Source of the DNA: an uncultured Bacteroidota bacterium | Lineage (GTDB): Bacteria; Bacteroidota; Bacteroidia; Bacteroidales; P3 | DNA: 64,000 bases | NCBI GenBank assembly: GCA_902784865.1 | Contig: CACZWL010000011.1 | Location: 16,803 to 80,802, forward strand | Direction of reading: 5' to 3' | Shown: positions 6,748 to 36,244 of the stretch, in pieces | How the letters are laid out: every line of letters begins with the position of its first letter | How positions within the stretch are numbered: position 1 is the first letter of the stretch | Notes under the pieces: generated by a model | What the model was told of the DNA's origin: nothing | Database searches by the model: none | What the model saw: only the letters and a program-made list of their open reading frames with translations | Program-made: the position numbers and the translations under genes

Positions 6748-6825
6748 ATTTTCTTGCCGGTTTTATACCGTTGGCGCGTCGGTTTTGATTTAATAACATG
6801 TTATATTGCTGTTCCGACGAGGTAT

Positions 6826-7095
6826 GCACATAAAAAGAGCGTGGAACTTGTAGGTCTTCATTGGTTCTCCTGAGGTCTTGGACTACCTATTTTCCCCAAT
6901 TACAACGTAAAAGTCCACGCATAAACGTGACCACGCTGTCGCCAAAGCTGGGGAAAATCTCTGAAAGTGTCCAAGTTTCAGGAGAACCAGTTCTGCTAAC
7001 TTCGCTATTTTCTATTCTATGATGTGCATATTGATTCTATGCGATATGCTTCATTGGCAATATATTTCGTTAATATTCCGGTTGTAAATCGACTG
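6826..7095 (-). ncRNA. Candidate pseudoknotted structured RNA, copy 1
   Basis: On the minus strand, behind a strong promoter (7096-7127), nested helices form: 6978-6988 with 6863-6873 (11 bp), 6970-6975 with 6877-6882 (6 bp) and 6949-6958 with 6889-6898 (10 bp). The apical loop carries GCGTGGA (6914-6920) and AGCGTGG (6931-6937), either of which can pair with 6838-6845 outside the stem, just before the U-run CTCTTTTTATG; that would be a pseudoknot or an alternative terminator hairpin. The same architecture with different helix sequences recurs at 33051-33267. No known family is assigned; a 6S-like or Bacteroidales-specific RNA is possible. Confidence 0.7.
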
Positions 7096-7127
7096 CAAAA
7101 GTACGACAATTATTTCATACGGCAAAA
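7096..7127 (-). promoter_or_regulatory. Promoter of structured RNA copy 1
   Basis: Minus strand TTTTGCC and TACTTTTGC are spaced about 19 bp. The promoter closely resembles that of the two tRNA-Ala genes (36279-36311), which argues for a stable RNA product. Confidence 0.75.
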
Positions 7128-32983: not shown

Positions 32984-33050
32984 AACTTTATAGCACTAAT
33001 TAGTGTCGTGCGCAACCTCCATACTGGCCAGCCCAACTCCAGTGATTTTA

Positions 33051-33267
33051 CATAAAAGAAGCGTGGGCCTGCATGTCTCACATTGTACTTGAAGGTCGTA
33101 GCAAAAACCTGTATCACTAATGTAAAGGGACAGCCCACGCTTGCGCGCGAAGCCGTCACACCGCCCTTGTGATACTTTGAAAATTTGCTACGTTCTCAAG
33201 TACAAGGAAGCATAACGCTTCTAATCATTAACTTTCGGCCTTGAGGTTATACCCTCAAAAACCGACT
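33051..33267 (-). ncRNA. Candidate pseudoknotted structured RNA, copy 2
   Basis: Minus-strand transcript from the promoter at 33268-33302. Helices: 33196-33205 with 33083-33092 (10 bp), 33184-33192 with 33097-33105 (9 bp), 33169-33175 with 33111-33117 (7 bp) and 33164-33168 with 33125-33129. GCCCACGCTT partner positions 33133-33142 pair perfectly with 33059-33068 outside the stem (10 bp), directly before CTTCTTTTATG. The architecture equals that of copy 1 with different helix sequences but shared loop bases (GAA opposite ACC, YTTTCARAG opposite AGGT). The 5' part also holds the hairpins TTGAGG/CCTCAA and GAAGC/GCTTC. Family not identified. Confidence 0.72.
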
Positions 33268-33302
33268 GCAAAAATACGAACAATATTCCATTCTGCAAAA
33301 AA
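33268..33302 (-). promoter_or_regulatory. Promoter of structured RNA copy 2
   Basis: Minus strand TTTTTTGC (-33) and TATTTTTGC (-7) about 18 bp apart, facing the RNA and the island operon and divergent from dut. Confidence 0.75.
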
Positions 33303-36050: not shown

Positions 36051-36051
36051 G

Positions 36052-36124
36052 TGGAGTAGATGGGACTCGAACCCACTACCTTTTGATTGCGAACCAAATG
36101 CTCTACCAGATGAGCTACTACCCC
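36052..36124 (-). tRNA. tRNA-Ala (anticodon CGC)
   Basis: 73 nt. Acceptor GGGGTAG/CTACTCC contains the G3:U70 pair, the alanine identity element. D arm GCTC/GAGC; anticodon stem TTTGG/TCAAA with loop TTCGCAA, anticodon CGC (codon GCG); T arm GTGGG-TTCGAGT-CCCAT. CCA is not encoded. Confidence 0.9.
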
Positions 36125-36167
36125 TTTCTCTATCAAAAAAGGGCCGTTCACGCTGCGACCCTTTCCT

Positions 36168-36244
<77 letters not shown>

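Follow-up and report, generated by a model that had tools for sequence, protein, structure and literature searches.

In bistable leaders of the riboswitch type, of which the strand exchange of the purine riboswitch is an example (available part of PMC9756952), a fold formed locally in the 5' leader is rearranged by strands made later, resulting in control of the gene behind. Among the Bacteroidaceae, the FopS and GibS sRNAs of Bacteroides are multicopy, structured and transcribed from promoters of their own; FopS is composed of a single-stranded 5' seed and a terminator hairpin, and acts in trans on susC mRNAs (PMC11697453, available part). Other structured RNAs of Bacteroidetes and gut samples, such as 6S-Flavo, Bacteroidales-1, Bacteroid-trp, Bacteroides-1 and Gut-1, are listed in PMC2864571, and in the accessible table of that paper Bacteroides-2 and GUCCY-hairpin bear no Rfam number. 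The accessible text of PMC8040213 further reports 3161 unnamed candidates from the human microbiome, some of them found only in Bacteroidetes, with sizes of 27-219 bp. The switching of translation is poorly known in Bacteroidales, since Bacteroidetes generally lack Shine-Dalgarno signals (PMC3155529, available part).

Here we have analyzed a window, meaning the whole stretch of 64,000 nucleotides from a contig of an uncultured bacterium of the Bacteroidales, in which an initial annotation made from the letters alone had pointed out a pseudoknotted RNA with a diverged second copy. This RNA, hereafter the leader RNA, may by analogy work like a riboswitch-type leader, its membership of a riboswitch class being a candidate assignment. 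Unlike such leaders, it precedes genes without a metabolic theme, unrelated genes being found behind fully identical leaders, and it shares one strand (the hinge, see below) with a pseudoknot beside the AUG. In contrast to FopS, as far as the available part of PMC11697453 describes it, the leader RNA is ∼170 nt long, pseudoknotted and apparently acts in cis. It differs from the motifs named above in having no match in Rfam, and from Bacteroides-2, which the accessible description assigns to one sequenced organism, in being present in many. Pieces of the family may be among the candidates of PMC8040213. No description of the leader RNA was found in the literature searched (main texts, for the most part open-access), nor in the available parts of PMC11697453, PMC7366714, PMC10994844, PMC11109978, PMC8632094, PMC2864571 and PMC8040213.

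Results

The two copies in the window

The minus-strand sequences at 33051-33267 (copy 1) and 6826-7095 (copy 2) were re-read and agree with the initial description, the four helices and the GCGTGG/CCACGC pseudoknot being present in both (Table 1). That the two are the same RNA, as had been proposed, follows from the fact that a covariance model blind to copy 2 finds it. This model was built from alignment A6, comprising 22 full-length relatives; A6 derives from the 28 rows of alignment A5, outside which the partial blastn loci L005, L019 and L020 remain, by omission of copy 2 and of five near-duplicates (L010, L011, L013, L014 and L026). In the window the model has exactly two matches, copies 1 and 2, with E-values which rest on a short calibration. 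Both copies fold better than 200 of 200 dinucleotide shuffles (z −6.0 for copy 1 and −5.1 for copy 2). Ends resembling the extra closing helix f of copy 2 are visible in the paralogues L078, L081 and L082.

Table 1. Elements of the two leader RNA copies and neighbouring features, numbered from the first letter of the window.
Feature	Position	Strand	Remarks
Copy 1, leader RNA core, model positions 1-168	33054..33221	minus	cmsearch 167.6 bits, E 3.4e-40; the copy is itself in the model
Copy 1, promoter -7 box TATTTTTG	33269..33276	minus	TAnnTTTG, Bacteroidota type
Copy 1, 5' hairpin TTGAGG/CCTCAA, between promoter and core	33241..33258	minus	predicted fold
Copy 1, helix b (helix 1 of the initial annotation)	33196-33204 with 33084-33092; span 33084..33204	minus	
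Copy 1, helix c (helix 2)	33184-33192 with 33097-33105; span 33097..33192	minus	
Copy 1, helix d (helix 3)	33169-33175 with 33111-33117; span 33111..33175	minus	
Copy 1, pseudoknot e	33133-33142 (AAGCGTGGGC) with 33059-33068 (GCCCACGCTT); span 33059..33142	minus	
Copy 1, alternative 5' hairpin	33149..33221	minus	HA 33210-33221/33149-33161
Copy 1, alternative 5' hairpin, helix cc	33202-33207/33165-33170	minus	
Copy 1, alternative 5' hairpin, helix h5	33193-33199/33177-33183	minus	exclusive with helix b
Copy 1, pre-AUG pseudoknot	33023..33071	minus	g 33064-33071 with loop 33029-33035 (TGGGCTG)
Copy 1, hairpin S, loop carries TGGGCTG	33039-33043/33023-33027	minus	
Copy 1, possible second small H-type pseudoknot GTTG/CGAC + CAC/GTG	32993..33016	minus	by eye; 9 nt 5' of start codon
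Copy 1, downstream ORF, 66 aa	32783..32983	minus	membrane-protein-like by eye
Copy 2, leader RNA core	6832..7003	minus	49.6 bits, E 7.4e-11, model without copy 2
Copy 2, promoter -7 box TACTTTTG	7096..7103	minus	TAnnTTTG
Copy 2, helix b	6978-6989/6862-6873	minus	span of b-c-d 6862..6989
Copy 2, helix c	6969-6976/6877-6883	minus	
Copy 2, helix d	6950-6958/6889-6897	minus	
Copy 2, pseudoknot e	6911-6920 with 6839-6849; span 6839..6920	minus	
Copy 2, extra closing helix f, just past U-run	TATGCACAT 7022-7030 with ATGTGCATA 6823-6831	minus	
Copy 2, helix g	GTTCC 6843-6847 with GGAAC 6811-6815; span 6811..6847	minus	under the 7-mer threshold of the family-wide test
Copy 2, second small pseudoknot CCG/CGG + GCC/GGC, 5' of start codon	6756..6782	minus	row L079, stretch positive by strict rule
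Copy 2, downstream ORF, 241 aa	6022..6747	minus	signal-peptide-like N-terminus by eye; no Pfam match
tRNA-Ala genes, anticodons CGC and GGC, adjoining pair	36051-36244	minus	

Conservation of the long-range fold

Structure statistics were obtained from 100 model-aligned copies (alignment A8). Since A8 is fitted to the b-c-d structure, pair counts lean towards it, and as safeguards we used shuffled and slid controls, together with permutation tests that take from A8 only the positions at which strands are cut. Within this alignment 95.3% of the cells of helices b, c, d and e pair, against 74.1% in column shuffles, and only 34-44% do so when the partners are slid by 1-3 columns; the remark that helix letters differ and yet stay paired is thus upheld as an excess over chance. 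Likewise, the claim of a selected RNA structure is supported by a covariation score of 0.539 (shuffled mean 0.144), which 0 of 500 shuffles reach. Variation on both sides is observed in 25 of the 32 pairs, with both-sided changes in 7/7 pairs of helix b, 7/9 of helix c and 7/7 of helix d. The 6-bp core of pseudoknot e is 98.2% paired and its 3-bp extension 86.4%; the core being near-invariant, e does not rest on strong covariation. On comparative grounds, the structure of the leader RNA is well supported. Regarding the unpaired bases described as conserved, GACC and TTTCA are indeed invariant in both copies and 26 relatives, but TTTTCAA can also pair in an alternative helix.

A second set of helices

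Helix h5 combines TTTTCAA with its complement, made up of GAA and the inner end of helix b. Three further complementarities were recognised in the same region: between the strand 5' of b and the strand 3' of d5' (helix cc), between GAAGCGTTATGC and GYATRACGGCTTC (helix HA), and between GCGTGG and the strand 5' of it (helix HB). We evaluated these helices with strands cut by alignment columns and pairing left free, against 500 pairings across different copies. All four exceed the permuted maximum: cc scores 5.25 (maximum 4.86) and HA 5.57 (5.33), while h5 with 6.42 (6.34) and HB with 4.14 (4.03) do so by a small margin, their strands being nearly invariant. Two negative controls fall within their own permutations, one of them near the top (2.81, maximum 2.84). 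Of eight distant relatives read by eye, four show a cc of 7-9 bp whose letters differ (GTTCTTGT/ACAAGAAC, TTATTCTGT/ACAGAATAA, GTCTTGT/ACAAGAC and ATCCTGT/ACAGGAT).

Because they share bases, h5 and b are mutually exclusive, as are HB and e. Strict exclusion would apply to these two cases only, as a bent fold might accommodate both cc and b-c-d. In minimum-energy predictions, which ignore pseudoknots, the 5' part of the core alone adopts cc (98 of 100 copies), HB (91) and h5 (85), while the whole core adopts b (98), c (98) and d (88), a pattern which corresponds to a fold rearranging during transcription. The preservation of two partly incompatible helix sets is supported by comparative evidence, and the predicted energies suggest that one may give way to the other as the RNA is made. 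In respect to the two conserved structures that characterise riboswitches, both helix sets exceed their permutations, although some helices could coexist.

Promoter, position and genes behind the leader

The annotation had also noted Bacteroidota promoters at the right place for both copies, and this holds for the window (Table 1) as well as for the family: 88 of 100 copies have TAnnTTTG no further than 120 nt 5' of the core, against 7.4 expected from shuffles, and in 76 of these 88 the box lies 44-68 nt upstream. At the other end, 114 of 121 loci have a next ORF of the same orientation according to a crude ORF caller (ATG only, at least 55 aa), which errs both ways: copy 1 (L086) and L037 were given an antisense ORF although a same-strand one exists, and the same-strand ORF is doubtful for L078 (63 aa, counted), L051 and others. 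This count started from 125 hits, four loci with less than 500 nt downstream being skipped. For the 108 distinct same-strand ORFs starting within 300 nt, only the same strand being inspected, core and ATG are separated by a median of 49 nt; the distance is 42-56 nt for 47 of these ORFs and 42-84 nt for 74. The copies without a clear ORF just behind are the L080 copy, L078 and L253-L256; at L080:9386-9565, in the own genome (C5), the next gene is oppositely oriented.

By sequence, the leader RNA thus occupies the location of a cis-regulatory leader, from promoter to start codon on the strand of the gene, and its position just upstream of the start codon is well supported. As most copies would by position run into the coding region and a consistent terminator is lacking, the free 210-270 nt transcript formerly envisaged is not a likely product.

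The genes themselves are diverse. For their analysis we used 95 of the 108 first ORFs (set A7), from which near-duplicates and doubtful cases had been removed by hand and to which one long ORF had been added. Signal-like N-termini, called by a simple hydrophobicity rule and not by a trained predictor, occur in 57 of these 95 and in 24 of 139 control ORFs (odds ratio 7.2, Fisher p 2e-11), a control drawn from 240 upstream ORFs by the same crude caller, which may be understated as it possibly includes false ORFs. Pfam assigns 96 families to the 95 proteins, none of them in more than three, and no common metabolic theme emerges. A link to anti-phage defence was considered and rejected: PADLOC gives 137 families in 139 downstream ORFs and 129 in 139 upstream control ORFs, figures which count families and not proteins (25 among the matches listed), with no visible enrichment behind the leader.

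The start-codon end

Downstream of the core lies a hairpin whose loop GGnnCTG is complementary to CAGnnCC within the 3' strand of e (helix g), and the pseudoknot formed in this way 5' of the start codon competes with e for the same strand. Compensatory variants are found in CAGCACC/GGTGCTG, CAGTTCC/GGAACTG, GCAGTCC/GGACTGC, TTGGCTC/GAGCCAA and GTTGCTC/GAGCAAC. Helix g reaches threshold in 49 of 100 copies, compared to a mean of 17 and a maximum of 29 in 1000 permutations, and in those 49 the flanking stem scores 4.67 (permuted maximum 3.90). The two rival partners of the hinge in copy 1 share the seven letters TGGGCTG, at 33131-33137 and 33029-33035.

A possible second small H-type pseudoknot was noticed shortly 5' of the ATG in long-spaced copies (L107, L136, L002, L007 and L085), with sequence types GTTGCGCCCGACAC..AGGG, GCCGAAAACTGC..GAGTAGGC and GAGCCGACAGGA..CGGC. 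Under a strict rule and mononucleotide shuffles, it is scored in 10 of 34 long-spaced copies (shuffled mean 2.7, maximum 8) and in 9 of 51 short-spaced ones (mean 3.9, maximum 8); the candidate of copy 1 is not positive by this rule. A short upstream ORF was discarded as a feature of the leader, being present in copy 1 (ATG CTT CCT TGT ACT TGA) but without any ATG in L022 and others.

Family identity and distribution

Compared to Rfam 15, window copies 1 and 2 have no family match, even at E 5, nor any at gathering score. None was obtained for eight named loci bearing the leader RNA and two chance loci, for eight 3-kb loci of distant relatives, or at E 0.1 for ten loci. The leader RNA is a family without a match in Rfam 15, and the suggestion of an uncharacterised Bacteroidales motif gains support from this and from its wide presence in Bacteroidales genomes. 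The proposed search of Rfam and of these genomes with a covariance model had a double outcome: no Rfam match, and homologues with paired changes.

6S RNA is a free housekeeping RNA, present in one or two copies and with no tie to a downstream ORF. A relationship with it, the other candidate put forward, would agree with the size of roughly 200 nt and the long irregular hairpin, but is already contradicted by the lack of any Rfam 6S or 6S-Flavo covariance match, by the many copies per genome (15 matches in the own genome, two of them doubtful), by the position just upstream of ORFs (114 of 121 loci beside a same-strand ORF) and by the pseudoknots. On the first three of these grounds the leader RNA is not 6S, and we give a relationship practically no chance.

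Among the 99 genomes of the genus, 56 have a blastn match to copy 1, which in many cases is confined to the promoter end of this query. With the model, at E ≤0.001, matches are present in 90 of these 99 genomes, in 131 of 150 genomes of the family (all 11 sampled genera), in 88 of 295 genomes of the order (56 of 177 genera) and in 15 of 345 across the phylum. Three of the last 15 belong to the order, the own genome included, and the 12 outside it have one weaker copy each, of 39-64 bits. In the own genome, where 15 matches were obtained at E ≤1, the doubtful ones are L072 (27.9 bits) and L073 (19.8 bits). As the leader RNA is near-palindromic, at many loci the model also responds weakly (11-35 bits) to the opposite strand of a true copy, so that low-scoring hits need care and per-genome counts may include antisense echoes. 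Exempt from this are nine named Bacteroidales genomes, reached through loci, with 3-13 copies each, from which the echoes were dropped; Bacteroides xylanisolvens, Phocaeicola massiliensis, Xylanibacter rarus and Bacteroides faecalis are among the carriers. In two genomes outside Bacteroidota, whose contigs match a short pattern by chance, the model search found zero leader copies. A scan for stretches listed 80 of at least 119, and 78 of the 80 match the model at E ≤0.001; L106 does so only at 1.4e-4, and L157 and L165 have no match. Some loci are one record in two collections, e.g. L013 and L126, whose contigs are equally long. Queried with one B. xylanisolvens copy, 3 of 50,697 phage records matched, one over 85% of the query at 85% identity, and one pattern queried against viral contigs gave 2 matches.

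In distant Bacteroidota (L253-L256, the same places being in L258-L261, and further L262 and L263) single copies occur without an adjacent ORF, several of which terminate in a U-run. All six of these loci have a divergent small ORF upstream (77-158 aa); of four scanned, two weakly resemble helix-turn-helix proteins. In L258, L261, L262 and L263 an ORF for a SusC-like TonB-dependent receptor of ∼1000 aa starts 228-341 nt downstream.

Leaders and the genes behind them

Once loci had been de-duplicated, 40 leader pairs showed an identity of at least 95%, reaching up to 100% before unrelated genes, and in 36 of these pairs the proteins behind have no blastp match to each other (two of the 36 depend on the doubtful 58-aa ORF of L051). 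The 80 nt upstream, promoter included, are only 70-90% alike in 32 of the 40. For 14 pairs with unrelated first genes we determined where homology stops: on the downstream side this is −3 to +22 nt from the 3' end of the RNA in 11 pairs and +29 to +74 nt in the remaining three, and on the upstream side 169-297 nt from that end in 12 of the 14. L097 and L158 have homologous Mob_Pre relaxase genes just upstream of the leader. Among 139 upstream ORFs, Phage_integrase and Mob_Pre match two each, and no recombinase is regularly adjacent.

In one gene family the leader stands before 8 of the 24 best homologues, which indicates that it is dispensable for that gene. Two homologues of a gene under leader control, L274 and L281, have kept the promoter and some sequence like the beginning of the RNA with the ORF directly after, the leader having apparently undergone internal deletion. 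This partial presence and the truncated leaders point to leaders being gained, lost or swapped, be it by ordinary recombination or through a mobility mechanism specific to them. At L009, L011, L036 and L088 the first genes differ, with a leader that is near-identical on one side and a second ORF that is conserved on the other (181-188 aa, MEQRESFFMRI... and kin), which looks like an exchange of the first gene.

Discussion

The observations above could be brought together by a portable bistable 5' leader which controls translation of the gene behind, a reading to which we assign a little less than an even chance. The promoter and a structured RNA of ∼170-230 nt would head the mRNA of whichever accessory gene follows. 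During synthesis the first half would fold locally into hairpins HA, cc, h5 and HB (state A), which would later be invaded by strands of the second half, resulting in b, c and d and in pseudoknot e (state B). The hinge of this exchange would be the strand CAGnnCC(A), held in state B by the upstream GTGGxCTG in helix e; when free, it would pair with GGnnCTG in the hairpin loop ∼20-50 nt 5' of the AUG, and the pseudoknot resulting from this helix g would lie in the region where translation starts. The balance might be shifted by the speed of transcription, by an RNA-binding protein or by a small molecule, which would thereby set the translation of an often secreted protein, the direction and the signal of such a switch being conjectural.

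The two states could also be coupled to transcription, with e and the U-rich stretch behind it forming a long-loop intrinsic terminator, so that state B would stop the polymerase and state A let it pass. The U-run reported after the core of both window copies does recur, a run of at least four T within 12 nt 3' of CCACGC being found in 61 of 100 copies and at least seven T among the 12 in 80, and L253 and L256 read CGCCTTTTTT; it is nonetheless not general, as 39 copies have no T-run and a number of Bacteroides copies read CCACGCTTCGTG. Moreover, intrinsic terminators do not usually have loops of ∼70 nt, and a terminator scan, whose rule allows loops of 3-8 nt only, makes no call at the 3' ends of the two window copies. 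We have discarded an intrinsic terminator as a general feature of the family and consider transcriptional attenuation unlikely. An own promoter and a compact fold would be expected as well of a stand-alone multicopy sRNA that acts in trans, the ORF downstream being a separate gene; such families are known in Bacteroides (FopS, available part of PMC11697453), and the few copies without a clear ORF just behind would be in agreement with this. The predominance of same-strand ORFs at narrow spacing, the extension of the structure toward the start codon and the lack of a consistent terminator argue to the contrary, and neither the fold nor the covariation of the leader RNA reveals a terminator hairpin behind a free single-stranded 5' seed, as in FopS. 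Action in trans is accordingly rated as quite improbable.

A different possibility is that the block is mainly a DNA-level exchange site, a cassette or recombination block in which the RNA fold serves exchange and regulation is secondary. The near-identical leaders before unrelated genes, the homology edges close to the 3' end of the RNA and at a confined distance upstream, and the Mob_Pre genes next to L158 and L097 are what such a site might leave behind. On the other hand, two pairs of e are G-U in 12 and 15 of 100 copies, which counts against a role at the DNA level because they correspond to A-C mismatches on the other strand; the spacings to promoter and start codon are narrow, and integrase and relaxase families are rare among the upstream ORFs. 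The probability of a mainly DNA-level function appears small.

Returning to the bistable leader, a broader and decidedly more doubtful proposal is that it constitutes a portable, typed RNA control module, in which a block of promoter and leader with a conserved two-state fold ending in a start-codon pseudoknot would spread between genes and Bacteroidales families, placing secreted or surface accessory genes under one shared signal. Within each leader type the RNA is near-frozen (95-100% identity), and if the module exists, such frozen types would point to a trans-acting partner.

Bacteroidales are dominant gut bacteria, and the leader RNA is common in them and experimentally tractable; the proteins encoded behind it are for the most part uncharacterised and often secreted. 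Should it be a switch, a whole surface regulon would be tied to one signal, and a control part ready for gut engineering would be at hand. Its spread before unrelated genes also prompts one to ask how a regulatory RNA can travel alone; if true, a transferable regulon at the RNA level would be a new kind of regulatory element.
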